Positions 6,755 to 55,173 of a DNA stretch of 64,000 nt are shown one piece after another (positions within the stretch are counted from its first letter, which is position 1; every line of letters begins with the position of its first letter). The position numbers were made by a program, and so were the translations under genes. The notes below the pieces were generated by a model. It worked only from the letters and a program-made list of their open reading frames with translations, was not told the origin of the DNA and did not search any database. The stretch is from Zygnema cylindricum (Eukaryota; Streptophyta; Zygnematophyceae; Zygnematales; Zygnemataceae). The stretch spans positions 130,082-194,081 of the forward strand of contig JBBHKE010003410.1 in the NCBI GenBank assembly GCA_037447655.1, written 5' to 3'.

Positions 6755-6826
6755 CTCTCCGGCCGGGAATTGAACCCGGGTCTCCCGCGTGACAGGCGGG
6801 GATACTTACCACTATACTACCGAAGA
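6755..6826 (-). tRNA. tRNA-Asp (GTC)
   Basis: The minus strand folds into a 72-nt cloverleaf: acceptor arm TCTTCGG/CCGGAGA (one G-T pair), A box TAGTATAGTGG, anticodon arm CCCGCCTGTCACGCGGG with anticodon GTC, and T arm with GGTTCAATTCC. It closely matches plant nuclear tRNA-Asp. The sequence directly 3' on the minus strand (6743-6754) reads AGCTCTTTTATC and includes a TTTT run suited to Pol III termination. Confidence 0.93.
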
Positions 6827-10443: not shown

Positions 10444-10842
10444 AGTCTGAGGGTTGGAGATGGAACTTGTTGCTGGAGTAGCAAATTACAAAAGGTTACA
10501 GCTCAATCCACAATGGAGTCAGAATATATGGCAGCAGCTTTCGCCCTCAAGGAGCTCCTATGGGTCAAGTCCATTTTACAGGAACTTGGGTATATGCAAA
10601 TTGGCACTCAAGCTATCTGGTGTGACAACCAAGCTGCCATAGCAATTGCCTCTAACCCCAGCCATCACTTTAAGAGCAAACACATTGATGTTAGACTTCA
10701 CTTTGTTAGAGAAAAAGAACTTACAAAAGTCGTTAAATTGTGTTATTTACCAGATAAGAACATGGTGGCTGACATGTTAACAAAAGCTCTTCTTGCTCCT
10801 AAGTTACAGTTTTGCAGAGATGCTATTGGACTAAGCGAGTAA
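10444..10842 (+). pseudogene. Copia RNase H/pol C-terminal fragment, left copy
   Basis: Open frame with WSSKLQKVTAQSTMESEYMA, then the WCDNQAAIAIASNPSHH block and LPDKNMVADMLTKAL, the conserved end of copia pol. It begins in the middle of RNase H (no STSGFVF block before it), ends at TAA, and is followed by a purine tract (TTTAGGGGAG) abutting the LTR. Essentially identical to 17416-17811. Confidence 0.92.
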
Positions 10843-10865
10843 CTGAGTCTAAAGATTTAGGGGAG

Positions 10866-11740
10866 TGTTGTATTTTATAAATCTTTATTTCAGTAAATAG
10901 GGGTACAAATAACTTAGGATATTTTTTCTAGTAGTCTACTGTAATACTTACTTTAATTAGTGCTACAGTAGCAAAAGGTACATTAGAGTGTATTGTATTT
11001 TTTGTAGGGACACGTGTCGGCGAAAGAACGTATGCGGGTTTTTCGGAGTGGCGCCGACAGTCAGCCATACGTGTCAAAATGTTGACGATGCGATTCACAT
11101 GATCGGACGAACGGGATCTGTCCCGAGTATTCTGGAAACATATGGTACAGCTCGACGGTACCATCGTCGATCGAATCTGTTCCAACGTACGCGATTCACC
11201 TTGGACCACAAGCGTGATTCACGAGGGACCACAAGCATGATTCGCGTGGGACCACAAGTGACGAAGCACTCAGGTGCTTCGTACTACACGACCACATTCG
11301 GATGGACTTTAGCAGTCACCGCTGACTAAGCATTTGGAAGGTTTTGTGTACGGTTAGAACGTTTTGTGTACGGTTCAATGTCTATAAATATCTGAATAAC
11401 ATTAGTTTGTTGTTTAGTGTGATATAAAATAATGTTTCATTAATCAATTTTTTAGAAAAGTAATAATTAGGGTTTTGAGGTACAGTGACGTACAAGTAGG
11501 ATGCTTTCTCGTTAGTCAGGATAATAACCGTAGTAACGGTTACCCGAATTAGTGTAGATCAGTAGATATACATTGTGAGTATATAACTTAGGACTTAGCC
11601 AATTTTGTAGTATCCAGTTTTGGGAATATGATTTTCTAAGGGCAGGTTTTGGGAAACTTTCAGACATCATATCTTATGGTTTACTGGGTCATTTGGGCTG
11701 CAATTTTGGGAATTGTCAGTTTACCGTATTGTGTATTACT
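10866..11740 (+). repeat. Copia-1 LTR, left copy (right edge approximate)
   Basis: Begins TGTTGTATTTTATAAATC directly after the purine tract. A TATA-like CTATAAATATC is at about 11382. It shares roughly 870 bp with 17835-18709 with only scattered changes near the end. The exact CA end and the primer site were not found with certainty. Confidence 0.8.
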
Positions 11741-11838
11741 GTGGCACATTCAAAGCATGTTGGCTTTCTGAGTCATATTTTGTGTCAGTTCTAAGTTGGC
11801 TGTTGAGTAGGTACTTTGATAGTTTCTGTTGTTTTTCA

Positions 11839-12736
11839 TGTATACTTCCACTACTACTGTTGGTTCTTCGCCTGCAACGGTGGTTGTAGAACAAAAGGTT
11901 ATGGGCCTTTCGTCAGGAATTCCTATCTTCAATGGCCAAAAGTATGCGTACTGGGCGGCGATGGTTGAATCGTCGTTTGAAACTGCTGACTTATTGGGGG
12001 TCTTAGATGGCTCCCTTGATGAAACAGATCCAACTTGGGCAAAGAAGAATTCAATGGCAAGGAACAATCTAAGTCTTTGTATTTCAAAAAATTTGGTCAT
12101 GTCTTGACTGAAAATGAAGAAGGCGAGGGAGATTTTGACATCCCTCAAATCCGCTTTTGAGAAAGCGAATGTTCAAGAAGAGCTCTTGGTGGCTGGAAAA
12201 ATTTGGGGATACAAATACACGAGGGAACTATGGTTGAGTATTGTGACAATTTTTGCGTGCTCATTGATGCTCACTCTTCTGCTGGGGGGTCATTTCCTGA
12301 GTTTCAACAGGCAGCTTTGCTTATTAGACGTCTCCCTAGTAGCATGAAAGGTGAGTCTGCTTTGCTTATTAGACGTCTCCCTAGTAGCATGAAAGGTGTG
12401 TCTATTCAATTAAAGAGTCATGACAAAGCTAGCTGGTCATTTTATGTAGCGTATAATCTTATATTGGAGGAAGAAACTAATACTAAACTCCTTAAGGGAG
12501 AAGGAAAGATTGAAGCATTTGCAACCGACTTTGAAAAAAGAAATCAATTAAATCAGAATAGGAATCAGTTTAACCAGAATCAGAATCAGTTTAGTCAGAG
12601 GCAGAATAGGCCATCTACTACTACATGTTTCTACTGTTCTGAGAAGGGTCATGGATACAGGTACTCTCCTAAATTGAAGAAGACTAATGAGACAAGTTTA
12701 TACAAGTCAGGTTGGCAACAGAGCCAGTATCACTGA
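11839..12736 (+). pseudogene. Copia-1 gag, frame-broken
   Basis: Starts STTTVGSSPATVVVE, followed by a gag-like helical region (GIPIFNGQKYAYWAAMVE). The frame is interrupted near 12107, and there is a 50-bp tandem duplication (LLIRRLPSSMKG twice, 12315-12400). A zinc knuckle lies at about 12628-12670 (CFYCSEKGHGYRYS), where the last Cys is Ser, so the CCHC is broken. An Asn/Gln-rich repeat (NQNRNQFNQN) precedes the knuckle. Confidence 0.82.
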
Positions 12737-12855
12737 GGTTTTTCTGGAAATCCTTCCCGTGGAAATGCTCTTTTTTTAACTTTTGCAACTGATGCAGATA
12801 AGTCTCTCAGCTTCAATGAGCAAGAGGGGGCGGATTTATTTGCTATGGCGCTGCC

Positions 12856-14120
12856 ATGGAGGGTCCAAAGGATGCAGGATGGATCATGGACACAGGAGCG
12901 TCTGCCCACATGTGTTGGAACAAGGCGGCTTTTACGAATCTGCAGCAAACATCTCCAAAGAGTATCTACTATGGTTGCGGCATGAGTGTTCAAACCTCAG
13001 CTCAAGGTGATGTATCATTAATGGTAGATGTGGGGGGAAAGTCGGTAGAGAGAACCCTTCACAATGTTTTGTATGTTCCAGATTTTGAGAAAAATCTTTT
13101 TTCTACATCATTAGTGGAGAGCAAAGGCTTTGAAGTTGTTTTGAAAGGAGGGAGACAGTTTGTTAGCAAGAAAATGGAAAGTTCCAGTAACAGGAACTAG
13201 AGATGCTAGCAAAATGTACCGGATGGACATGGCTGAATATAAGGAAAATGATGTTCTTTACTCGAGTGTTGAATGTAATAATGAGTTGTGGCATAAGAGA
13301 TTAGGACACATGAATTATGGTAGTCTAAAGAAAATGGTAAATTCGGGAAAAGTTGATGGAGTTTCTCTCACATCTCATCCTATAAAAACATGTGATGGTT
13401 GTTCACTTGGCAAGATTCACAAATTGCCATTTCCACAGGAAACAGACCATAGATCGGAAAAAGTTATGCAACTCATCCATTCTAATGTTCTCGGTCCTTC
13501 ACAAGCGGCTTCGGCTGGAGGGGCCCACTATATGGTCACATTTACAGATGACTACTCGAGGTACACAAAGGTTTACTTCATGCAACATAAAAGTGAAGTG
13601 TTTACTCACTTCAAACACTACAAAGCGTGGGCAGAAAAGCTTCATGGAGTTCCAATATTGGCGCTAAGATCGGACAACGAGGAGAATACACATCGAAAGA
13701 ATTCAAAGAATTTCTCCTTCAGGAAGGTATCAGTCACAATCTTACAGTTCCATATACACCAGAACAAAATGGTGTTTCTGAGAGATTAAATAGGACAGTG
13801 ACAGAGAGTGCTCGGTCCATGCTTGCATATAAAGGGCTAAATTTGAAATTCTGGGTTGAAACACTTAATTGTGTTGTTTATATTAAGAATAGAATAGCTT
13901 CTAGGTCTGTTAGCACTACACCATATGAACTTTGGACAGGGGAAAAACCTGAAATTAGTCACTTTAAGATCTTTGGCAGCAAGTGTTTAATTTTAGATAC
14001 TTCACGAATAGATGGAAAATGGAACCTAAAGGCTTACTTGGGATTTTCATGGGGTATGATGATAATGCGAAAGGATATAGAGTTTTTGTCCTTGAGAAAC
14101 AGAAAAAGTGATTGTTTCTA
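12856..14120 (+). pseudogene. Copia-1 protease and integrase, frame-broken
   Basis: The aspartic protease motif WIMDTGASAHMC is at about 12877. The GAG-pre-integrase/zinc region has WHKRLGHMNYGSLKKM and CDGCSLGK (HHCC). Integrase core blocks: FTDDYSR (first Asp), LRSDN (second Asp) and PYTPEQNGVSER (Glu). A frameshift between the second Asp and the following GEYTSKEF block (about 13680), and another near 13160-13200, break the frame. Confidence 0.88.
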
Positions 14121-14275
14121 GAAATATCCAGATTAAAGATGAACAGGATTCGGTTGACCTATTTAAAGTGCCAGATCAACCGGCAAAAGAAAAGCAAGAA
14201 TATGTCATTTTTCACCATACGTAGAGAGTCTCCTTTCCACCGGCAAGTGGGACACCTCTTCCTTCAATTCCTCTG

Positions 14276-15667
14276 GTGCCTTTACATGCTGTTTCCCCAC
14301 AAGCTACACCTCAGGTGGAAGGAACTACTACACATTTTGTACCAGATCAAGTTACGGTTCAGACTAAACAGCGAAATCAGAGGTTACCGACCATCTCAGC
14401 CCCAGAATTTCCGGGGGGAAAGAGATCTAGCAGCCGTCTGCAAGCAAGCTCACTTTTATTTTCTACAGCTACAGAGGAGCCTTTAACAATCCAGGAGGCC
14501 TTCTCATCACTTGAGAGAAGTCAGTGGATCGAGGCGGCAAATGATGAAATGAAGTCCATTATGGAAGCACAGACATGGGAGCTGGTGGATCTTCCTCCGG
14601 GTAGGAAAGCCATCGGCAGCAAATGGGTATTCAAGGTGAAGCTGAACCCGGACAACACCATTGAAAGGTACAAGGCCAGACTATTGGCTAAGGGATATAA
14701 TCAAAAAGAAGGTTTAGACTTTGAGGAAACCTTCTCCCCAGTTGTTAGATTTCCCACTCTTAGAATTTTGCTAAGTCTAGCGGCTATAGGGAATATGGAA
14801 ATACATCAGATGGATGTTGAAACTGCTTTTTTGCATGGAGAGTTAGAAGAAACAATTTATGTGAAACAACCTGAAATGTATGTTTAAAAAGGAAAGGAAG
14901 AATTAGTGTGTAAATTGATGAAATCTTTGTATGGGCTAAAACAAGTCCCGCGTAAGTGGAATCTAAAGTTAGATGAGCTTTTGATTGGGCTAGGTTTTAA
15001 AAGAATTAGCTCAGATCATTTTGTATATGATATACAAGGAGAGGATGGGGTAATTTACATTGCTGTATATGTGGATGATCTATTTTTAATAAGTAAATCA
15101 ATGGATGAAATAAACCGCATTAAAGCGGCTTTAAGGTCCAGGTTCGAGATGAAGGACCTCGGTGAGGCCAAATATATCTTAGGAATACAGGTAGAAAGAG
15201 ACAAAAACAAGATGCTGATTATGTTGACTCAGAAAGAAGCAATAGGTAACATGCTAGAAAGATTTCAAATGAAAGATGTGAAAGGATCCGTAACTCATAT
15301 GGAATTCAGACACAAATTGGAAGGAATTCATACAGATTCGGGCATAATTGTTGGTGATAGTTTAGAAACAGGGGAGGAAGAGTTTATGGCTTCAAAGCCA
15401 TATAGACAGGTAGTTGGAAGTCTTATATATTTCATGAATTGTACGAGACCCGACATTGCAGCAGCTGTGGGAGTCTTGAGTAGAAGTCTGCAGAATCCTA
15501 AAATGGTAGACTGGGAAGCAGGGAAAAGAGTGTTGAGATATCTTGCAGGTACTCGAAATCTCAAGCTTGTTCTCGGAGGAGGAGAGGTGAAAATCCAGAC
15601 GTGGAGCGATGCTAGCTATGGGGACATGCCAAGCCGGAAATCTACGTCTGGCTTCGTTTTTGTTGAA
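14276..15667 (+). pseudogene. Copia-1 reverse transcriptase, interrupted
   Basis: RT blocks in order: WELVDLPPGRKAIGSKWVFK, NTIERYKARLLAKGYNQ, QMDVETAFLHGELEE, a TAA stop at 14885-14887, SLYGLKQVPRKWN, YVDDLF (catalytic Asp pair present) and LGIQVER, then RNase H start WSDASYGDMPSRKSTSGFVF. The frame ends abruptly at about 15667 where a 1.7-kb insertion begins. The missing remainder resumes at 17416. Confidence 0.9.
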
Positions 15668-16897
15668 ATGTATGTATTTTCTAGGTCTGTATTGCAAAAA
15701 AAAAATAGAGTAAGTCAACAAAGGCAGCCTGCTTCTTGTTCAAATCTCTCCGGTCCCCATACTTGTTGCAGTCACTGAAGACGAGAGAGAGCTAGAGCCA
15801 TGGCCGTCTAAAGAGGATAGGCTAATTCGTCGTTTGTACCAAAATGATTGTGCCGGGGTCAGGATTTGATCCTGGTACCTCCACACTATATTAGACGTTA
15901 GCTTTAGCCAATAGCTTAGAGTAAACGATGGCATATGTGGGGTACAATAGGTATTTATAAGTGTAGAAGTAGAGAGTTCTAACAAACTAACAAATAACCA
16001 AAAACTGCTCTTGACCAGATTTGAACCATGGTCTATGGTTATATTTGTAGAGGTAAGCCTTAACCAATAAGGCGTTATCGAAACAATACACGTGACGGGT
16101 TTTATAAATACATAAACATTAACGCAACAGCTAATTAACAGCAGACTAACCAAAAGGAGCAATTCATGCATGTACGCGAATCTGAACCGTGTAAAATTTG
16201 TTTTGATCGGATGGCCGGTGTTATAGCCGCCACGCGAAGTGAGCTTTTGGCGGCATAAGGAGATAGCGTCACGCGGTGCCACGTGGCGCCACATTATTTG
16301 ATACCGGAGAAGATGGGAGGAGGAACCATGGCTTCCGATTTGACAGGTGTCACCTTATAGACCTTGTCGTACAATGGTTGTACAATAAGTACATCGCCCA
16401 TTGTACCTTCTTGTACTATATAGTGTTCCTATTGGACTAGGGTTTAGTAGTAGGTAGTCGTAAGTAGGCAGACCAAGACTTAGTGATACTTAGGTACCTC
16501 TCTCTAAGAGAGCTTGTAACTATAAAGGTCATCTTTGACCAGCCATAACTTAATGCTCGGGTGAGCAAATTCAGTGATTCTTTTTGCTGCGGACTCAGGG
16601 GAGTCCAAGCTACACAAGGGTGTAGTCGGTCAGAGTCTTTGCGTGCCAGGGTGGCACTTATTCAGTGGGAAAGTCAAAGTGGGGAATATTGTCCAAAACA
16701 CATATTGAAGCTTTGCATTTTGTGGTGGAACTGAGCACACAGAAGGTCTTCTCTTCACAGGGGTGAAGGTATATTGGGGTTTTTATTGTGAAGGGATCAT
16801 TTATTTGGGTTTATATCAACTTGGAGTCTGCACTATCTAGATTAGCTTCTTTTGGATCTGCGAATTCTGTGGGCAATGGAGCCCATAGATTTTCAAG
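15668..16897 (+). mobile_element. Inserted copia-2-family LTR and leader fragment
   Basis: Shares TATTTTCTAGGTCTG, CTAGAGCCATGGC, GGATTTGATCCT and, further on, CATAACTTAATGCTCGGG-type leader sequence with 26846-27860, the 5' part of the second copia element. It inserted into RNase H of copia-1. It contains two minus-strand tRNA-like B-box blocks (GGATCAAATCC near 15870 and GGTTCAAATCT near 16026). It stops where the TRIM starts (16898), at the beginning of a coding-like MEPIDFQ. Confidence 0.7.
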
Positions 16898-17002
16898 TGT
16901 TGGATTGGCACGTGAATGCCGGTTCAATACGGGGTAGAATGTGAAACGTCACACTCGAATCCGCCTAAAAGAAATAGGTACGGACCCGCCAGGCTCTACA
17001 TC

Positions 17003-17074
17003 GAGCTGGTGGCACAGTGGTTAGTGCGCTGACAGCTCAAGTCAGAGGTCCCAGGTTCGAGCCCTGGCCGGCTC
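17003..17074 (+). tRNA. tRNA-like gene within TRIM left LTR (nominal anticodon CTC)
   Basis: A complete 72-nt cloverleaf: acceptor GAGCTGG/CCGGCTC, D stem GCAC/GTGC, anticodon stem CTGAC/GTCAG with loop AGCTCAA, T stem CCAGG/CCTGG with loop TTCGAGC. The A box TGGCACAGTGG fits the consensus and the B box GGTTCGAGCCC is close to it. A TTTT run follows at 17077, suited to Pol III termination. Position 33 is G rather than the universal T, so decoding is doubtful although transcription is plausible. Confidence 0.8.
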
Positions 17075-17288
17075 ACTTTTCCCTAGTATGGGACATACCG
17101 AATCCCGGATTTCACGGAAATCAACATGGTATCGGAGCCAGCGGGATTGCGGATGGTGTGACCGGCCTTCCCGTGAGGGGGGGTGTTGGATTGGCACGTG
17201 AATGCCGGTTCAATACGGGGTAGAATGTGAAACGTCACACTCGAATCCGCCTAAAAGAAATATGTACGGACCCGCCAGGCTCTACATC

Positions 17289-17360
17289 GAGCTGGTGGCA
17301 CAGTGGTTAGTGCGCTGACAGCTCAAGTCAGAGGTCCCAGGTTCGAGCCCTGGCCGGCTC
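17289..17360 (+). tRNA. tRNA-like gene within TRIM right LTR
   Basis: Identical to 17003-17074, in the same position of the second LTR, again with a TTTT run two bases downstream. Confidence 0.8.
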
Positions 17361-17415
17361 ACTTTTCCCTAGTATGGGACATACCGAATCCCGGATTTCA
17401 CGGAAATCAACAGTT

Positions 17416-17811
17416 TTGAAGATTGGAGATGGAACTTGTTGCTGGAGTAGCAAATTACAAAAGGTTACAGCTCAATCCACAATGGAGTCAGAATATATGG
17501 CAGCAGCTTTCGCCCTCAAGGAGCTCCTATGGGTCAAGTCCATTTTACAGGAACTTGGGTATATGCAAATTGGCACTCAAGCTATCTGGTGTGACAACCA
17601 AGCTGCCATAGCAATTGCCTCTAACCCCAGCCATCACTTTAAGAGCAAACACATTGATGTTAGACTTCACTTTGTTAGAGAAAAAGAACTTACAAAAGTC
17701 GTTAAATTGTGTTATTTACCAGATAAGAACATGGTGGCTGACATGTTAACAAAAGCTCTTCTTGCTCCTAAGTTACAGTTTTGCAGAGATGCTATTGGAC
17801 TAAGCGAGTAA
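17416..17811 (+). pseudogene. Copia-1 RNase H/pol C-terminal fragment, right copy
   Basis: Continues the pol frame broken at 15667: LKIGDGTCCWSSKLQKV to LLAPKLQFCRDAIGLSE and TAA, followed by the same purine tract and LTR. Essentially identical to 10444-10842. Confidence 0.92.
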
Positions 17812-17834
17812 CTGAGTCTAAAGATTTAGGGGAG

Positions 17835-18709
17835 TGTTGTATTTTATAAATCTTTATTTCAGTAAATAGGGGTACAAATAACTTAGGATATTTTTTCTAG
17901 TAGTCTACTGTAATACTTACTTTAATTAGTGCTACAGTAGCAAAAGGTACATTAGAGTGTATTGTATTTTTTGTAGGGACACGTGTCGGCGAAAGAACGT
18001 ATGCGGGTTTTTCGGAGTGGCGCCGACAGTCAGCCATACGTGTCAAAATGTTGACGATGCGATTCACATGATCGGACGAACGGGATCTGTCCCGAGTATT
18101 CTGGAAACATATGGTACAGCTCGACGGTACCATCGTCGATCGAATCTGTTCCAACGTACGCGATTCACCTTGGACCACAAGCGTGATTCACGAGGGACCA
18201 CAAGCATGATTCGCGTGGGACCACAAGTGACGAAGCACTCAGGTGCTTCGTACTACACGACCACATTCGGATGGACTTTAGCAGTCACCGCTGACTAAGC
18301 ATTTGGAAGGTTTTGTGTACGGTTAGAACGTTTTGTGTACGGTTCAATGTCTATAAATATCTGAATAACATTAGTTTGTTGTTTAGTGTGATATAAAATA
18401 ATGTTTCATTAATCAATTTTTTAGAAAAGTAATAATTAGGGTTTTGAGGTACAGTGACGTACAAGTAGGATGCTTTCTCGTTAGTCAGGATAATAACCGT
18501 AGTAACGGTTACCCGAATTAGTGTAGATCAGTAGATATACATTGTGAGTATATAACTTAGGACTTAGCCAATTTTGTAGTATCCAGTTTTGGGAATATGA
18601 TTTTCTAAGGGCAGGTTTTGGGAAACTTTCAGACATCATATCTTATGGTTTACTGGGTCATTTGGGCTGCAATTTTGGGAATTGTCAGTTTACCGTATTG
18701 TGTATTACT
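17835..18709 (+). repeat. Copia-1 LTR, right copy
   Basis: Starts TGTTGTATTTTATAAATC and matches 10866-11740 (offset 6969) almost throughout. Confidence 0.82.
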
Positions 18710-18909
18710 ATGGCATATTTAAAGCATGTTGGCTTTCTGAGTCATATTTTGTGTCAGTTCTTAGATGGCTGTTGAGTAGGTACTTTGAGTCATATTTTGT
18801 GTCAGTTCTTAGATGGCTGTTGAGTTGGTACTTTGATAGTTTCTGATGTTTTTCATGTCTACTTCCACTACTACTGTTGGTTCTTCGCCTGCAACGGTGG
18901 TTGTAGAAT
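18710..18909 (+). pseudogene. Copia-1 leader and truncated gag start after the right LTR
   Basis: The leader carries a tandem copy of GAGTCATATTTTGTGTCAGT, then gag codons STTTVGSSPATVVVE followed at once by TAA, where the sequence passes into duplication unit E copy 2. A normal 3' LTR would be followed by host DNA. Confidence 0.85.
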
Positions 18910-26834: not shown

Positions 26835-27915
26835 ATTAGTATTTTCTAGGTCTGAAAAGAAATATAGAAGTCAAGGCAGTCTATCTCTAACTTCTCTCTC
26901 CAACTCTCAAACTTGTCGCAGTCACTGAGAAATTGGAGAGGAAGCTAGAGCCATGGCTACCTTGGCTATCCTGAGGTTTACGGGAATTTTATATTAGGAT
27001 TTATTTATTTATTTAAAAGGTATGTGCCGGCGGCAGGATTTGATCCTTGTACCTACCGGCCGGCAGACAGGAAATAGCCGGTAGCCCTAGCCGTTAAGTC
27101 TAGGATTAATGTTACGTAGTATATAGTTTGATAATTATTTAAACATGTATACGTATGATAATTCATTTAACTATAAACAGATTACGGGATACATAGATCC
27201 GGTAATATATACGGTACGGACTAAAATCAATACCGCGCATTTGTTTCGTAAGTGAAACAAATACCGCGCATGTATTTATTACGGCTACGATTAAATCCGA
27301 ATTTAATCGGACGGCCGGGATTAGCGCCGAGATCGCGGAGGAAGATTTCGGCGGTTTGTGGCCATCACCACATCGGATGACGCGTGCGCAATTACATTGG
27401 ATCGTGGAATCTCCGGAGATCATGACACCGAATCCGAATATGACATGTGTCGACATTTGGGCCATGTCGTACAATGTTCGTACATAAAGTACACCGGCAA
27501 TTGTACTTTTGCGTACGGAACTTTATTCTGATTAGTTCCGTACATCAGTAGATATAGTCTGTGAGAGAGATAGGACTTAGAAAAATTAGGAGATAGGACC
27601 CTCTCTCCCAGAGAGCTTCTGTACAAAAGGTCAACTTTGACCCTCCATAACTTACTGCTCAGGGGAGCAAATTCAGAGATTATTTTTGCTATTGACTCAG
27701 GGGAGTCTTGCCTTCACAGAGGTGCAGGTGGTCAGAGTTTTTGTCTGCCAGGGTGGTAGTTTTTTTTGCTGAAACACAAAGGGGTCAGGATTATCCTAGA
27801 GGCTTCTTGGAAGCTGTCCACTCTGAGGACTTATGGAGGTCTCAGAGTTTCAGGTTATGGGCCCACCCTCTAGGTACCAATCTTTAATGGAACTGGATTC
27901 ATATACTGGGAAAGT

Positions 27916-28761
27916 ATGATGATAGGAGCTCTATGCGAAAAAAGGTTTTGGGGGATAGTGAGTGGACGGTTGGGACGTCCATCAAGTCTTGGAATTCCTC
28001 CAGGGTTTGGAGGAAGCAGATTCACCAGGAAAGAGGATCCACCTTCAACGGAGGAAACAAAAGAAGGAGAGGTGGTGGACAAAGGAAAGGAGAAGGAGAC
28101 GACCACACCAATAGCAACTGGTTCGGCATTCATGTCACCTATTCCGAGGAACGAGGAGAATGATACTGAAACCTGGGACTTCAACAATATGGCGGCAAAG
28201 CACTTCATCCTACGCCATCTCACTCAAGGACTTGCATGTCCTCATTTGCAGGTAGAAAGGGCATCCGATCTTTGGATGGCTCTCATAGAGATGTACCGAA
28301 GTGGTACGATTCAGCAACAACAGTTGGCTGATCAGAAAGTTAAGGAGTATGTATACAAAGGGGGAAATATGTTGGATTTTTGCAATGAGCTTGCTACACT
28401 CTTCATGGAGCTAGAGAGTGCGGGAAAAGATTTTAGTGAAAAAGAAAAGGTTAACTGTTTACTGATGAAGTTACCTGATGAGTTCGTGAACATAGTTTAC
28501 CGTGTGCAGGACTTGCCTGACTCAAGGTGGATATGGAACTCAGTGGTAGGGATGATTCTCGTTTGGGAGAATACGATTGAGATCCAAAGGGGAAGAAAGA
28601 GTGGCCAAACCTTCGCAACTGCGACCGATTGGAGGAACAAGGATTCTCAGAAACCGGGTGGAAACTATAGGGGGAGCGAGCAGAAAAATCAAGGGCTCCT
28701 AAAGGTTTATGTCATTTTTGTAAGAAACCTGGGCATTATATGGCAGAGTGCAGTAAGCTAA
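27916..28761 (+). pseudogene. Copia-2 gag, frameshifted before the zinc knuckle
   Basis: A 281-codon frame with a UBN2-type gag core (LWMALIEMYRSGTIQQQQLA and KVNCLLMKLPDEFVN). The CCHC knuckle (CHFCKKPGHYMAEC, about 28709-28750) is in another frame, so a frameshift lies close to 28700. Confidence 0.82.
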
Positions 28762-28886
28762 GCTAGCTTCGGTTAAAGGAGGGGAAGACCGGTGGTACCC
28801 CAAGAGGAAAGAAAAAGGCCCTTGTAACACAGGTACATGAGGCGGATTCCGAGGACGAGGACGATGAGCTCCTTTTAGATGAGGAA

Positions 28887-30200
28887 TTGGAGGCGAAAAA
28901 AGAGGTCAAAATTCCACGAAGGCAGAAATGTGCTTACGGTGGATTGATAAGTGAAGAAGGCTGGATTGTAGATTCAGGTGCCTCCATGCACATGTGTAAG
29001 GATAGGCACTTGTTCACTAAGATAAGAAATATTCCCACCGTAGAGATAGTGTACGGGGATGGGAGGAAAGTCACCACTTCTCTTGTAGGATCGGTAGATC
29101 TGAAAGTGTTAGTAGAAGGAAAGACATCAATAGTAACATTCGCCGATGTATTGTTTATTCCGGAGCTGAACAAAAACCTCATCTCTACATCTGTATTAGT
29201 GATAAGGATTTTATTTACTAGCACTAAGGAAGGAGTCTTTACTGCTAGTTTTGAGGAGGAAGTCTATTTCATTGTTGAGAAAGGTAGCCATGGGATGTTA
29301 AGGCTGATATTAAGTAATGAAATGAAGAAACTTTATTATGCTGGTGTTCATGATATTATAATGTGGCATACGAGGCTTGGGCATGTAAATCTAGATAAGT
29401 TAAGGGAGATGAAAAAGATGGGAGTGGTGGAAGGGATTCAGTTCAGTGAGAGTGATAATATAAGTGATTATAGTTAGTGTGCTCAAGGTAAACACACAGA
29501 TTACCCTTTCCTAAAACAACCACCTATAAAGGGGAAAAAATTCTAGATCTAGTACACACAGATATTTGGGGACCAGCTAAAGTGCCCTCACCGGGGGGGA
29601 AGAGATTTATGATGACTATCACTGATGATTGGTCTCGGTATTCCCGAGTGTATTTTTTGAAAAACAAGTCGGAAGCTCAGGATTGTTTTAGACAATATAA
29701 AGCATGGAGCAAAAAACTTCATGAAACTCCAATCAAGAGAATAAAGAGTGACAATGGTGGAGAGTATACTTCTAACCAGTTTGAGGATTTTCTGAGGGAA
29801 GATGGGGTCCAACACCAAAAGACAGTTGCAGAATACCCGGAACAGAATGGGGTAGCTGAGCAATTATATAAGACACTAAGTGATAGTGCTAGAATTATGT
29901 TGTCGGATAAGAAGATAGGAAAAAGGTTCTGGGAAAAAGCAATGAACTGCGCTAATTACCTCAAAAATAGAGTTCTTACCTCAGCTATAAAAGATCAAAC
30001 ACCTTAAGAGAGATGGACCAGTCGAATACAAGACATATCTTACTTAAAGGTTTTTGGCAGTCAAGTATTCAGTCTAGATACAGATCGGTCTAATTGGAAG
30101 CTAGATCATAAAGGAAAACCGGGATACTTATTAGGATATGATGAGGATGTTAAAAGATATAGAGTTTATGATATAAAAAAGGGAAGATATAATCTTAGTA
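28887..30200 (+). pseudogene. Copia-2 protease and integrase
   Basis: Protease WIVDSGASMHMC (about 28962). GAG-pre-integrase WHTRLGHVNLDKLREMKK. Integrase first Asp ITDDWSRYSRVYF, second Asp IKSDNGGEYTSNQF, Glu block YPEQNGVAEQ. Stops at about 29475, 29544 and 30004 break it; the sequence after 30004 still reads as the post-integrase region (YLKVFGSQVFSLDTDRSNWK). Confidence 0.88.
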
Positions 30201-30215
30201 AAGCATCTAGTAGTT

Positions 30216-31105
30216 ATGGATGAAGGAAAGTCTATGGATCCCTTCAAATATACAAAGTCACTAAAAATCAGATTTGAGTCAGAAAATTCCGATAACTTTG
30301 AGCTCCCTAACTATCCAGGTTTTAGAGAAGATGACATTCTTGAAGATACAAATCAGACCGAAAAGGACTCGGCTGTGGAAACTCGAGTGACAACTCTACC
30401 CGAAGCGGAATACATGGTGGAAATTGATTCGGAATCAAGGGATAGGGGAGAAGCCGAGTTTGTTCGAATGAATCCACGAGAACCATCTATCCCAGCCTCA
30501 GATTTTGAGCGGGGAAGGAGAAGTAGCAAAAGACTACAAAAAAAACAGGTTAATAACAAGGTAACTAAACTATCTCATCAAGATGAACCTCAAACTTATG
30601 GAGAGGCGATGACTTGTCCAAAAAGAAACCGGTGGAAGACAGCCATCAATGGGGAGATGGCCTCAATTATGGCAGCCGATACTTGGGAGCTGGTGGATTG
30701 TCCACCTCACCGAAAACCAATCGGTTATAAGTGGGTCTTCAAATTAAAACTGAACCCAGATAACACAATCGAGCGCTACAAGGCCCGATTAGTGGCAAAG
30801 GGATTTACACAAAAAGAGGGAATTGACTACGATGAAACCTTTGCCCCAGTGGTCAGATTTCCCTCCGTCCGCATACTTCTCAGCCTGGCACCAGCGGAAG
30901 ACATGGAAGTGCACCAGATGGACATCAAGACATCCTTTTTGCATGGATAATTGGAAGAGGAGATCTTCATGCGACAACCCGAAGGGTTTGTAGAGGAAGG
31001 AGAGGAGAGTAAGGTATGCCGGCTGATTAAATCTCTTTATGGTTTGAAACAGGCACCTCGACAATGGAATAAGAAGCTTGATGATTTTCTTACCGGTCTG
31101 GGACA
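30216..31105 (+). pseudogene. Copia-2 reverse transcriptase, N-terminal half
   Basis: RT blocks WELVDCPPHRKPIGYKWVFK, NTIERYKARLVAKGFTQKEG and HQMDIKTSFLHG, a TAA, then SLYGLKQAPRQWNKKLDDFL. The sequence diverges after LTGLGQK and the catalytic YVDD region is absent. Confidence 0.88.
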
Positions 31106-32759
31106 AAAGCAATCATGCCCAAAAATCGTGCAAATTTCTATGTCGTGCAAATTGCTGAATGTGAAAAATGTCATTTGTTCTTGGTCTGTATTTTATTTTT
31201 TTGGAGTAATGCGCTGTCTACGAGATAGAGAAAGAAGTCAGACAGAAGGCGGCCATGTCTGTGCGCTGTCAAGGCGGTCGTGTTTGCCTGTCAGATAGGC
31301 TTGGACAAACAAAATTTCATAAAATTTTACCTTCGTGGCATTCGAACCCGGGTACGTCAAGTGCGTAGCGTACTATATGATGAACGATTGGACTACCAGT
31401 TGGTGAAGAAGTTCCGATACAAGCGAAAAGTGTGATAAAAATCTAAAGAGTTTATTGTTTTACCGCTCATTTAACGGGAAAAACTTGCAAACTGCGTTAT
31501 ATGTAATATTTTTTTGTTTTTTTATGTACGGAATAGTACGGAAGGAAATTCATTAACGATTTTTTGCGATTTGAACAAAAGGTTCAATGTGTCTGTTACA
31601 TATAATTCGTCACGTACGGTACGTTCGCACTGATCGCCATGAACAACTATGCTTCCCACGTTTCGCTTTATTCTTTAGAGTAGGTCATTAGATTCGTTTT
31701 ATTGTGATAGGCTTGTTAAATACGGAGGTCAAAAAGGTGGAACTCCACAGTTAAATAAATGGTTTCTATGCTCTCAAATTCAACATGGTGGTGGCTGAGC
31801 GTTCAGACTTCAGACTTGGGCACAGTCTCATTTCACCACTTGGTAATTAGTAGTCCGCAGGTTGTTACAAGTCAAAGGGACTTTGGAGAGGAGACAAATC
31901 TTGGTAATCTTCGTTACATGCTATATCATACAGATCAACATTAGGGCAGTCAACAAGTATTACCTATATTATCAACTACAACAACTTTACAACTTGTTCC
32001 CTCAGTGTTATCAATTATTATAGCGTTGTTAGTTCAAAAGCGGCTTGGAGAAATCATACACACGCCAAGCGTCAGTGAGCAAAGATGGTTGTTGGTCGAA
32101 ATGCCCTATGAAACAAAATTTTGGACGTTAAAAATTTGAGGAATTGCGACGCGATCAGCGATCACTTTATCATTAAAAGTGATAGTAGTGTTGTGTATCG
32201 GTGAGTTTTAATTCCGGTAATTGATATATCGACTATCATTATCGGTAAGGGGACCTCTCGCTGGCGGTCTACTGGACGGAGAGAGTGCGCAAGGAGAGAA
32301 ACAATAGAGCGAGAGAACTGTCAAAGGAAGCGCAAGGACGCCCAAGCCATCGGATTGCCAAGTGGGGATGAGAAAGAGGAGAAAAATTGTAGCCAGGGAA
32401 TGGGATAGAAGGGGAAAGCTGAGAAGGGGAGTGAAACATCCAAAATGTGAACAATCGTGGCGGCCGTGTAACTAAACGGCAAAGTCAACCATCTTTTGAC
32501 GGTCGTGTTGAATAGAGATTCAAGTGTCTTCGTGCATTGATACAGACCGCGTTCAATTTTGATCGTACTTATCAGGTGTGGTGGTCTTCCAGGAATACAG
32601 TTGCAGCGTCAATTTCAGCTGGTAGCAACACCGATGTGAACTAGAGTGAGTTACACTTTTAGCCACATGCCAATGTACTATGTTATTAGTTTTGCGGCAT
32701 ATGGCGTCAACCGTCACGTCATGAAAACCGAAGTATTGCCGATGTACCATTGACAAAAC
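31106..32759. other. No protein gene recognised; one tRNA-like block
   Basis: A minus-strand block at about 31326-31405 has a B-box-like GGTTCGAATGCC and could be a SINE head or decayed tRNA; the cloverleaf is poor. The stretch 31500-31640 (ACGGAATAGTACGGA, ACGATTTTTTGCGATTTGA) resembles 37660-37780, an unnamed dispersed repeat. Confidence 0.4.
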
Positions 32760-38699: not shown

Positions 38700-40035
38700 C
38701 ATTCTTTCACTTTCTCTCCCTCCCAATCTTCCCTCTCTCCCCTCCCTCCCTCCTAATCCTGCCCTCTCTCCTTCCTTCCCTCCCTCCCTCCCTCCCTCCC
38801 TATCTGCCCTCTCTCTCTTCCCACCTTCCCTCCCTCCCTCTTTCCTTCTTTCCATCCTTCCCTCCCTCCCTCCCTCCCTCCCTCCCTCCCAACCTGCCCT
38901 CCCTCTTTCCCTCCCACCCAATCTCCCCTCCCTCCCTCCCTCCCTCTTTCCTTCCCTACCTCCCTTTTTCCTTCCCTCCCTCCCAATCTGCCCTCTCTCC
39001 CCTCCTACCTTCCCTCCATCTTTCCTTCCTTCCCTCCTTCCCTCCCTCCCTCCCTCCTTCCCTCCCTCCCTCCCTCCCTCTCTCTCTCTCTCCCTCCCTA
39101 ACTCCCAATCTTCCCTCCCTTTCTCCCTCCTTCCCAATCTGCCCCCTCTCCCTCCATCCCTCCCTCCCACCTTCCCTCCCTCCTTCCCAATATGCCCCCT
39201 CTCCCTCCATCCCTCCCTCCCACCTTCCCTCCCTCCCTCCCTCCCTCCCTCCCAATCTGCCCTCTCTCCCCTCCCTCCTTGCCTCCCTCCCTACCTCCCA
39301 GCCTGCCCTCCCTCCTTCCCTCCCTCCCTCCTTCCCTCCCTCACTATCTACCCTCCCTCCCTCCCCATCTGCCCTCCCTCCCTCCCTCTTTCCTTCCCTC
39401 CCTCCCAATCTACCCTCTCTCCCTCCCTCCCTCTCTCCCTCCCTCCTTCCCTCCCTCCGTCCCTCCCTCCCTCCCTCCCTCCCTCCCTCCCAATCTGCCC
39501 TCTCTCCCTCCCTCCCTCTCTCCCTCCCTCCTTCCCTCGCTCCATCCCTCCCAATCTGCCCTCTCTCCCTCCCTCCCTCTCTCCCTCCCTCCCTCCCTCT
39601 CTCTCTCTCCCTCCCTCCCTCCCAACCTTCCCTCCTCCCTCCCTCCCTCCCAATCTGCCCTCCCTCCCTCGCTCCCCTTCTCCCTCTCTCCCCCTCTCCC
39701 TCCCCCTCCCTCTCTCCCTCCCTCCCTCCCTTCCTCCCTCCCTCCCTCCATCCCTCCCTCCTTCCCTCTCTCTCTCTCTCGCCGTACCCCTCCCCCATTC
39801 CGCTGACCCTCACCCTCTCTCTCTCCCTCTCCCTATTCTTCCCTCCCCCTCTACCTCCCCTCTCTCTCCCTCCCTCTCCCTCTTCTTCTCCCTCTCTTGT
39901 CCTCTCCACCTCCCTTCCCCTCTTTTGTCCTCTCTACCTTTCTCCCCCTCTCCCTCTCCCTTTCCCTCTCCCTCCCTCTCCCTCCCTCTCCCTCTCCCTC
40001 TCCCTCTCCCTCTCCCTCTATCTCTCCCCTTCTCC
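38700..40035. repeat. 1.3-kb pyrimidine array (CCCT/CTCC)
   Basis: Almost pure pyrimidine on the plus strand. CCCTCCCT runs are punctuated by a recurring CCAATCTGCCCTCTCTC (more than ten times), which shows that the array grew by unit duplication. It ends in CCCTCT repeats and a T-rich tract to 40260. The long open frames here, up to 559 codons, are composition artefacts. Confidence 0.95.
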
Positions 40036-50200: not shown

Positions 50201-53200
50201 TCAACTGAACGGAAACGGTTGTGGACAACAGACAAGCACCCCTAATAGAAGAGTGCCCACCCCGAGTAACACCTGATTCTGGGAGGGCGGCGTGAGCTCA
50301 TCGGCCTGCGGGAGCACAGGGCCTCTCTGAAGCAGAACGACGAGAATGACCCAATAAAACGCCACGTCGTCAAAGAAGGCACTGCCGGCCAATAGAAAGA
50401 GAGAGACGCCAGTCCACCGTGAAGCTGCCTGGAAATTTAAAAAGAGAAAGATAGAGAGAGAGAGGAGTGAGAGTGAGAGTGAGAGAGAGAGGGGAGAGAG
50501 AGAGGGAGAGAAGAGAGAGAGAGAGAGTGAGAGGTGTTGAAAATACTCTCTAATACTACAATGTAGTATACTACCATGTGAAAATACGACTATCCCTTAG
50601 AATGTTCCTTTGGTGAAAGCTTTAGGAAGTGCTGCAACATCCTCCCACTCCCCCTCGACCTCACACTTCCCCTTTCCCTTTCCCTCTCCCTCACCTTCCT
50701 TCCCCAAATGCTTGAGCATTCTCTCTTTTGCCTCTCTCTTCCCCTCTCTCCCACTAACCTTCCTCTCCCAAAAAGCGTGTACTATCCTGCCTCCACTTCC
50801 CTCTCTCCCTCTGTCCATCAATCTCCCTCCATCTTCCTCTGTTCCTCTCTATCTCCTTCTCTCCCCCTCTCCCTCGTTCCCTCTCTCCCTTTTCCCCACT
50901 CCCCCTGTCCTTTCTCCCTTCTCTCTTTCCCCCTCTGTCTCTCCGCATCTCTCCTGCCCTCCGTCTCTCTCTCCCTCTCTCCTTGTCTCCAGCTCTCTCT
51001 CTCCCCCTCTCCCCCTATCCCTTTTCCCCTCTCCCTTTCCCCCTCTGTCTCTCTCCCTCCCTCCTGCTCTCCCTCTCTCCCTCTCCCACTTTCCCCTCTC
51101 ACAACTTCTCTCTCTCCTGTTCTCCCCCTTTCTCTTTTTCCATCTCTTTTCCCTCTGTTTTCTCCCTTTCTCCGACTCTGTCCCTTCATCTCTCCCTCCC
51201 TCCCTCCCTCCTTCCCTCCCACCCACCCTCCCACCCTCCCTCCCTCCCTTCAATCCCTCCCTCCCTCCCTCCCTCCCTCCCTCCCTCCCTCACCTTCCTC
51301 CCCCACAGTGCATGCGCTATCCTCCCTCCGTCCAGCTGCCCCAGCGGCACCGCACTCAGCGCGTTGGCCAGCAGCGCCAGCCAGGCCGGCACCACCAGGG
51401 GGGAGATGGAGAGAGACCCGCCCTCCACCAGACGCTCGCCCAGGATCGCTTTGCCTGACAACGAGTAGCAGAACACGAGAGGACGCAAAACAAAGGAAGG
51501 AACAAAGAATAAGGATGAAAAACAGGAAAACTTGAAATTGAAAGGAAAGAGAGGAAGGTGAGAGAGGACGAGGAAGGTCTGAGAGGTGATGTGGAGAGAG
51601 AGAGGGGAACAGGACCGGTCCGTCGTCGAGGATCACTTTGGATAGAAAAAAATAACGAAACAAGAGAGACGAAAGAAAAAAGAAAAAATGAAGATCAAAA
51701 ACAGAAAACATCAAACGATTACGATAAAAAGAAAGGTCTGAGAGGGTGATATGGAAAGAGAGGCGCCCTCCAGTGGTCGGTCGCCCAGGATAGCATTCTC
51801 TCAAAACAAAGAACAAAGAAAGAAAAAACAAACAAGAAAAAATAAAGTCTAAAAGCGAAAAAACCTCAAATTACTACAACATAAAGAAAGGTCTGAGAGG
51901 CTAATATGGAGAAAGAGGCATGTCCTCCATCCGTGCCAAGATAGCTTTCTCTAAAAAGAAATAACAAAAAGCAAAAGGAAGGAATAAAGAAAAGGAAAGG
52001 GTCAAGAAAGTTTCCCAAAAAACAAAACCCTAAAAACAAGGGATACATTACTCGCAAAACAAAAACGAAAACAAAAAGAAAAGGGATAGGTTCCATAAAA
52101 ACAAAAACAAATGAGATAACTTTCCCTAAAACCAAAAATAGAAACAAAAGGGATAAGTTTCTCAACAAAAAAAAATAAAGAAACAAGAAAAAAGAAACGG
52201 ACAGATTTACGTCAGATTATTACTACCCTCAGAGAGGTCTGAGAGGGTATATGGAAAGTGGGAAAAACGGAAATAAGACCATTTACCATAAATATTGTGG
52301 ACTTTTTCTTCGGCAAATGTTTGGCCATGAGTCCAACATCATCAGCAATCCTCACTAATTGTTGTGCGAAATTTTCGGACGAGGTTATTTGATTTTTATT
52401 TTATTTTTTGCACATTTGCATGTTAACAAGATTCAACGTCTATTAGTTTCCACTAATGTTTTTGGACGAGAACAAGTACACGGGAAAGGAAAAAAACGGA
52501 AAAAAAGAAGAAAAAAAAGAGTTTTCCGAAGCAAAATAACCCATGGAAACAACCCTGTCACTTATATATCTGTTTGCCGGAGATGGAAAGAAGACGGAAA
52601 GTTTCAAAAACCCTTCCACCTTGAAAAAGAAGCACAAAACAAAGGCACAAAAAACATAAAAGCGTAAAACAAACGCGCGAAAAAAAACACAAAACACACA
52701 CATAGAAAGGAAGCAAAAAAATATTACCGAGTCCTCCGACGATTAGAGAGTCGTGAAAGAGGGAGCTTTCCACAGCCATTCCCTCTCCCCCTGATGACAT
52801 CAGCAAACTGCCCAGAAGAATGACGAGCGCCACACCGGATCCGGCGAGTGGTCCAGCTGCTGCCACGTCAGCAAGCACTCCCCTGGTGGGGACCACACCG
52901 TTGATTCGAGTGATGGCGCCAAATGTGCCCAACTGGTCGACATTTTGTCAAAAAAGAAATGGCGGTTTAGAAATAGGTTTTCTATGGTTTTCTTGAACAG
53001 TCTCTTTCGAGCACTTTTCAGGTAAAAATTTAGCAATGAAGCCGTTGATGAACAGTTTCTATTTTACATAGAAATGGCAGTTTAGTGATGAGGCTGTTGT
53101 AAAATATTCTTTGATTTTAACCATAGAAAAGCAGTTGTATAAATGTGGCAATTGTTGCAGGTTAATGTTTCTTAATTTTGGAAAGCAGTCAGTTGAAACA

Positions 53201-55173
53201 ACCTACATAGCCGCGAATTCATAGACGAAAATACGAGATATGAAGCTAACCCATCATGAAAATATCGTGCCCTCTACCCTAAAGGCGACCAAAAAGTGTC
53301 TTACTGTTGATAATAAGACAAAAATGGCGTACAGGAAAGACAAACATGTTGTACAAATAAGACAAAATTAGCATAACAATCAAGACAAAAATGTCTAACA
53401 AACAAGACAATAATGCTGTACAAATAAAACAAAAATGCCATAACAAATAAAACAAAAATGGCAGTACAAATACGGCAAAATTATGACATTAGACTAACAC
53501 AAAAATGAAGTACAAATAAGATAAAAACTTCACACATAAAAGACCAAATTGCTGTACAACAAGACCCAAAAAAAAAAAAAAACGCCCTACGAATAAGACA
53601 AAAAATAGGCCATATCGACGAAGGAAAAAAAGGCGTACGCATAAAGACAGAAACGTTATACGAATAAAGACAAAAATTATGTACGAAGAAAGACAACAAA
53701 TCCGTAGGAATAAAGACAAAAAATGGCATACAAGCAAAGACGAAACACACTCTACGAATACAGACAAAGACGTGTCGTACGGACCTGCCAGCTGGGAATG
53801 AAGTACGGCAGACTGAGGCGGATCCCTGCCCTCTTGGCTGCCGCCACGTGGCCGAGCTCGTGGGCCGCCAGCACCGCCGCCATCACCAGGGCGCCGGGCC
53901 ACGCGTCAGAGAATATCTTCGCAAGGTATTCCGGGGAAGGCCTGCGGAAGAAAGAAGGGAGAGAGAGACTCAGAATGTCTTCGGAAGGTATTCCAGGGAA
54001 GGCCTGGAGAAAAGGGGAGGAGAAGGGTGGGAAAGGAGGGAGGAGGGAGGAGGGAGGAGAGGGGGAGTATGAAAAGAAAAGAAAAAGGAAAGAACGGAGG
54101 ATAAAGTTGGCATGTCCGTAAGTTTTGCGAAATGTCTAACCTTGAGAAACAGTTTTCAGATGGCTGAAAGAAAGAAGAAGACAAAAGAAGGGAAGAAAGA
54201 AGGAAAGAAAGGGAGGAAAAAAGAAAAAAGAAAAGAAAGAAAAAAAGAAAGAGAGGAAGAAGGGAAGGACAGATGAAAGAAAGAAAAGAGACAAAGAGGG
54301 AAGAAAGAAAGAAGAACAGAAAGAAGGAAGGACAAAAAGAAGGAAAAAAGGAAATAAATAAAAGAAAAGAGGGAAAGAAAGAAAAAAGAGAGGGATAGGG
54401 AGGGGGCGGAGGAGGGGTAGGGGGAGAGGGAGGGACAAGGAAGGGAGAGGGAGGGAGGGAAGGAGGGAGGGAGGGAGGGGGGGGCTGCTGAATTTTCGAA
54501 TACATGGCAATCCTATTATAAAAATCTTAATGATGTTCTAAAACGAAAGATAGACATAAGGAAAAACAAAAAAAGCCTTCCAGGTATGAAAAGAAGGCCG
54601 CTATACAAGTATTTCCCAAACTGGCAGCAACGTAGTTTTTTCTTTTACTGTATGATTTCATTCTTTTTTGACAAGAAAAATCTCGTCATACCGAGCAAAA
54701 TAATATAAATACAAAAAAATGCTTACAGGGCTTCTAATTCGATTTCCGCATTGACCTGCAAAATAGTGAAGAGAGTGGTCAATCCAAAGGCTCCCCCGGC
54801 CACCCACTCCGGTACAGCTGCCCTCCACAGAAACAGCCCACTCGGAGTCTTTGTCAGTTTCTTCAATTCTTCAGTTTCTGTTTAGTGGTTGACGTGGTTA
54901 TTCAGTTTTTGTCTCTCAGTTTGTTCCGTTCTTATCTCAACCTGTGCAGTAGTTGACTCAGTTAGGTTAGTCTTTGACTCAGTTTGTTCCGTTTTTCTGT
55001 GTTCCGTTCTTCGCTTCTTTTGCCAGTTTTTTTTTGTCAGTTTTTGTATGAGGGAGGAGGGGAGGAGGGAGGGAGGGAGGGAGGAGAGAGGAGGGAGGGA
55101 GGAGGGAGGAGGGAGGGAGGGAGGAGGGAGCAGGGAGGAGGGAGGAGGGGGGAGGGGGGAGGGAGGGAGGGAG

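Follow-up and report, generated by a model that had tools for sequence, protein, structure and literature searches.

What kind of element is present at positions 16898-17412 of the 64-kb stretch of DNA analyzed here (the window), where two nearly identical repeats each contain a tRNA-like sequence? Overall, the 515-bp segment is organized as a miniature LTR retrotransposon that lacks a protein of its own. We consider it likely that the segment is a Helenus-type TRIM, which is a non-autonomous element with LTRs that both include a Pol III gene derived from a tRNA, and that it uses the Pol III and Copia-helper mechanism proposed below. Its main parts are the following.

16898-17126, + strand: 5' LTR, 229 bp
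16898-17002, 17003-17080 and 17081-17126, + strand: putative U3, R and U5 of the 5' LTR, respectively, with predicted limits
17127-17183, + strand: internal part, 57 bp
17127-17142, + strand: primer site (PBS), TGGTATCGGAGCCAGC, initiator-Met type, adjoining the left LTR
17175-17183, + strand: polypurine tract (PPT), GAGGGGGGG, adjoining the right LTR
17184-17412, + strand: 3' LTR, 229 bp, identical to the 5' LTR at 228 of 229 positions

The sole mismatch between the LTRs is a G at 16977 that corresponds to a T at 17263, and the LTR termini are TGTTG...CAACA, which form a 5-bp inverted end. An earlier note on this DNA, based solely on its sequence, had described 229-bp LTRs with one differing base, a 57-bp interior, a primer site touching the left LTR and a purine tract touching the right LTR, and this anatomy is borne out at the coordinates listed. 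The PBS agrees at 14 of 16 positions with the site that pairs with the 3' end of plant initiator-Met tRNA. Its first 13 bases contain one mismatch, and a scan of the 64 kb in both orientations finds no other site with at most one mismatch. The element has five to eight stops in each of the six frames, and its longest open stretch, of 81 codons, matched no protein at E ≤ 1. When the frame that crosses an LTR and the internal part was compared with predicted proteins, one candidate was returned, and none at E ≤ 1. The segment therefore has the properties by which TRIMs are recognized: two direct LTRs, a length below 1000 bp, no coding capacity, a PBS beside the 5' LTR and a PPT beside the 3' LTR.

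Two similar repeats could also arise without a retrotransposon, if a genomic segment comprising a tRNA-like gene and its spacer had been duplicated in tandem. Tandem Repeats Finder does report 1.8 copies of a period of 286, a target duplication is absent, and there are other duplications in the neighbourhood. However, the repeat is bounded by TG...CA with its 5-bp inverted end, the initiator-Met-type primer site (one mismatch in 13, unique in 64 kb) touches one repeat, and the purine tract touches the other. We regard a duplication of this kind as extremely improbable, and the retrotransposon reading is retained in what follows.

The LTRs contain the following features of a tRNA-type gene.

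17003-17075, + strand: tRNA-like cloverleaf with discriminator A, anticodon CTC, in the 5' LTR (ARAGORN, Rfam)
17010-17020, + strand: A box, TGGCACAGTGG (strict pattern)
17054-17064, + strand: B box, GGTTCGAGCCC (strict pattern)
17077-17080, + strand: TTTT, putative Pol III terminator, in the 5' LTR (from the sequence)
17289-17361, + strand: tRNA-like cloverleaf in the 3' LTR (ARAGORN, Rfam)
17363-17366, + strand: TTTT, putative Pol III terminator, in the 3' LTR (from the sequence)

The tRNA calls made by ARAGORN, with anticodon CTC, extend over 17003-17076 and 17289-17362, and each LTR copy matches the Rfam tRNA model with 54.6 bits (E = 5.4e-9). All 21 of the 21 cloverleaf pairs can form, one of them as U-G. 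The flawless 72-nt cloverleaf of the earlier note thus stands with regard to pairing, and its length is better given as 72 nt plus the discriminator. For the unmodified RNA, the cloverleaf is not the structure of lowest energy, which is better by 0.2 kcal/mol, and the folding energy of the block is unremarkable (z = -1.13, with 32 of 200 shuffles equally stable). Thus, identification of the block as tRNA-like rests on the covariance model and not on energy.

The strict A-box/B-box pattern finds both boxes in each LTR, intact as had been claimed, and it matches at these two LTR blocks only when both strands of the 64 kb are scanned; the pattern is too stringent to be exhaustive, because it misses the ordinary tRNA-Asp gene of the same window. 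That gene (anticodon GTC) lies at 6755-6826 on the minus strand, scores 61.1 bits and appears ordinary. The TTTT runs begin two bases past the discriminator, at 17077 and 17363, where the earlier reading had placed them, and the + strand of the element holds no further TTTT. Functional tRNAs require U33 in the anticodon loop. Position 33 here, read from the sequence, is instead the G at 17035 that had already been singled out as the odd base. The block fails in this respect as a functional tRNA gene, and decoding is therefore unlikely.

An element with such a block might still be an ordinary Pol II TRIM, if one LTR had received a single insertion of a tRNA gene or SINE that reverse transcription then copied into the other, in which case the block would be a passenger and not a promoter. 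Insertion of a SINE into a TRIM LTR is the origin that has been proposed for Helenus in general (Kojima 2024, PMC10886601). Moreover, synthesis of a genome-length RNA by Pol III is difficult to reconcile with a T4 stop inside the 5' LTR, and conservation of the block cannot be shown with the single copy known from the 64-kb window. However, the blocks of both LTRs have complete stems, boxes and terminator, and no direct duplication of at least 5 bases was found around the block, which argues against its recent insertion into the LTR, although an old duplication could have decayed. On balance, we consider a passenger unlikely and prefer a block that acts as a Pol III promoter.

To which known family, then, might the element belong? 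SINE2 elements have no LTRs, PBS or PPT. They resemble the present element in their tRNA-type internal Pol III promoter and in being short and non-coding, but they need non-LTR retrotransposons (PMC10886601). Cassandra is likewise organized as a TRIM, its LTRs both contain a Pol III gene, and its PBS, TGGTATCAGAGC, is also of the initiator-Met type (Kalendar 2020, Maiwald 2024). In contrast, the Cassandra block is a 5S rRNA sequence with A and C boxes and no tRNA, and the elements measure 565-860 bp (cited in PMC10886601). Rfam detects no 5S rRNA in the present LTRs, either at gathering level or at E ≤ 0.5, but does find tRNA. The anatomy agrees with the parallel that the earlier note had drawn with Cassandra, with a tRNA-type promoter substituted. 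Ajax elements of nemerteans likewise have a piece of a Pol III gene in their TRIM LTRs and are 421-434 bp long, but this piece is a partial 5S rRNA block, the primer is of the Leu type, and the hosts are animals (PMC10886601).

The earlier note had added that no family of this kind was described. This statement does not hold, because a 2024 publication describes such TRIMs, whose LTRs contain tRNA-derived sequence, under the name Helenus (PMC10886601). According to that description, the name Helenus applies to TRIMs of less than 1000 bp that have tRNA-derived sequence in their LTRs, the lengths given are 311-1263 bp, and Helenus, Cassandra and Ajax together constitute TRIMp3 (Kojima 2024, PMC10886601). 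The hosts given there are fungi, animals and, as the sole plant, Selaginella moellendorffii (Kojima 2024, PMC10886601).

The element corresponds to this description in being short and non-coding, in having two LTRs that each carry tRNA-derived sequence, and in having a PBS and PPT that adjoin the LTRs. The A and B boxes are kept within the LTRs, and the length of 515 bp falls in the range of 311-1263 bp. The motifs TRGCY...YGG and GGTTC, which are kept in most of the Helenus elements described, are present here. The 3' end of initiator-Met tRNA is among the Helenus primer types, and the PBS of fungal Helenus is Copia-like. The tRNA-like block of Helenus is described as lacking complementarity to the PBS, so that it does not self-prime (PMC10886601). 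In a self-priming trial restricted to the 3' end of the present block plus CCA, 10 of 17 positions matched, versus 14 of 16 for initiator Met. Helenus insertions in plants and fungi are reported to have 5-bp target duplications (TSDs), a property of single insertions that stands outside the naming rule (PMC10886601); such a TSD is not found at the present locus, where the flanks are rearranged. The only plant family in that description, Helenus-1_SMo, has 120-bp LTRs, 85 bp inside and 5-bp TSDs, whereas the present element has 229-bp LTRs, 57 bp inside and no TSD.

Based on these structural features and the published description, the element is probably a new member of Helenus/TRIMp3. TRIMs are known from Selaginella, Chlamydomonas, Volvox and Chondrus in a survey whose main text does not contain the word "tRNA" (Gao 2016). 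Among the matches listed from open-licence literature, there is no report of tRNA-type TRIMs beyond Kojima 2024, no title reporting TRIMs in green algae, and no earlier report of Helenus/TRIMp3 in the present host lineage.

How might such an element be copied? Pol III would be directed by the A and B boxes to start near 17003. Some of the polymerases may pass the short TTTT at 17077 and halt at the TTTT at 17363. Cassandra transcripts are described as running from the 5' small-RNA block to the 3' one, each within its LTR (PMC10886601). By analogy, the product would be an RNA of ~364 nt, from ~17003 to ~17366, with the tRNA-like block at both ends, and the block would thus correspond to the R region, for which the limits given above are predictions. 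Initiator-Met tRNA would prime reverse transcription at 17127, and Copia enzymes would presumably copy and integrate the RNA in trans, which would make the element mobile. The presence of Copia remains on both sides of the element counts in favor of this proposal.

The TTTT of the 5' LTR counts against this mechanism, because it should terminate Pol III transcription partly or completely. Human cells are described as frequently reading through Pol III terminators, and yeast read-through increases as the T-run shortens; the run lengths given as sufficient for termination are four T (human), five (fission yeast) and six (budding yeast) (PMC5356446, 2017 review). However, read-through of yeast tRNA genes typically reaches 50-200 nt, and the resulting RNAs are rapidly processed or degraded (PMC5356446). 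The distance required here is 286 nt past the 5' TTTT, and the reported reach of read-through slightly lowers our confidence in the proposed explanation. The interval separating the two stops is not significantly depleted of T-runs, as TTTT is also absent in 69% of shuffles.

A bolder version of the mechanism, which we regard as distinctly doubtful, is that the LTRs of this lineage keep the complete tRNA fold and not just its two promoter boxes. The ends of the RNA would be intact tRNAs, dead for decoding, that serve both as the R region and as a target of tRNA-processing enzymes or tRNA-binding proteins. Maturation of the tRNA would then choose between a short tRNA-like RNA and a full-length template, and the element would represent an algal or early-plant branch of TRIMp3.

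How the element came to its present position is less straightforward, given its neighbours.

15674-15804, 15841-15880 and 16334-16662, + strand: left neighbour, outside the element, colinear Copia-like pieces
17417-18788, + strand: right neighbour, outside the element, Copia pol tail and LTR region

The 5-bp target duplications that the earlier note had proposed to look for are absent at this copy, which is flanked by TCAAG on the left and GTTTT on the right. An imperfect flank match of 7 of 8 bases, TTTTCAAG/TTTTGAAG, lies one base out of register and is expected by chance in 0.4% of random flank pairs; this near match is not a TSD of the Copia type, because it is too long and shifted. The left-neighbour pieces are 70-85% identical to the 5' part of a Copia element around 26839-27764, and this neighbour appears to have been truncated before 16898. 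The right neighbour is a 99.5% duplicate of 10448-11819 (1372 bp). In the reading of frames, Copia pol is interrupted near 15667 and continues from about 17424. The element thus occupies a junction of truncated Copia elements, and its flanks may fail to match owing to recombination or deletion that followed insertion, or to a fault in the assembly.

Accordingly, the alternative to a simple recent insertion, although not to a TRIM, is that the element in its present form derives from recombination of two copies or from insertion followed by deletion. We give this history an even chance. It fits the lack of a TSD and the mixed origin of the flanks, of which the left resembles the 5' portion of a Copia element and the right is the pol tail of another. 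This tail and its duplicate at about 10450 start at approximately the same base of pol. However, because the LTRs are identical at 228 of 229 positions, a recombination partner must have been nearly identical, and the junction could also be an assembly error. If simple insertion is assumed, plant rates give an age of 0.17-0.31 Myr, with 95% limits up to 1.7 Myr, an estimate that is only indicative because the flanks are rearranged. With respect to the recent movement that had been claimed, the single difference in 229 LTR positions speaks for it, and the missing TSD and rearranged flanks speak against it.

Several other Copia sequences occur in the window. The direct repeat 10448-11819/17417-18788, with copies ~6969 bp apart, runs from within Copia pol through an LTR-like region, and an adjoining piece (11769-11891/18786-18908) extends it to the gag start. 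The two copies of the repeat begin at almost the same position in pol, so that they look less like plain LTRs than like a Copia arrangement that is tandem or permuted. The gag-pol frames of the first Copia element (12161-15778) are broken into several pieces; among the frames scanned, a gag_pre-integrs domain is found in 13145-13789 and RVT_2 in 14225-14887. A second broken Copia (27874-31298) has gag, Pol_BBD, integrase and partial RT domains, and it is this element whose 5' side is similar to the left neighbour described above. The best 120 of 3797 matches to a Copia RT fragment include plant TNT1-94-type proteins with 37-46% identity and one contig labelled as an actinobacterium.

No further copies of the element occur within the 64-kb window. 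Exact searches of viral contigs gave no hits, either for 21 bases taken from the tRNA-like block or for 23 bases from an end of the LTR, and a 24-base LTR piece had none in prokaryote genome contigs; both collections are ill-suited to the host, and the viral, prokaryote and protein collections searched may omit the host's own records.

What, finally, is the host lineage? The only host protein gene recognized in the window consists of pieces of an EGY2-like chloroplast site-2 protease at 50201-54135 on the minus strand. Its product has 44-52% identity to four land-plant matches and 46% to Chlorella. A midpoint-rooted tree was built from 17 of at least 120 homologues and the window sequence. In this tree the window sequence groups with seven rows, the four land plants included, to the exclusion of Chlorella (support 98/96), and it lies outside those seven rows (support 100/99). 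The Chlorella row is flagged as a long branch of unsure position, and the opposite side of the tree consists of nine rows, of which one is named as cyanobacterial. The land-plant grouping of this protein tentatively suggests that the host is a streptophyte alga or an early-diverging plant. Elsewhere in the window, pyrimidine-rich TCCC/TCTC arrays (38730-39780 and 50798-51302) yield spurious long frames.

If this reading of the host holds, the range of Helenus, for which Selaginella alone represents plants, would be extended in the direction of streptophyte algae or plants that diverged early. The start block, the TTTT and the putative R region coincide in this compact element, which would also make it well suited to testing Pol III transcription of tRNA-type TRIMs.
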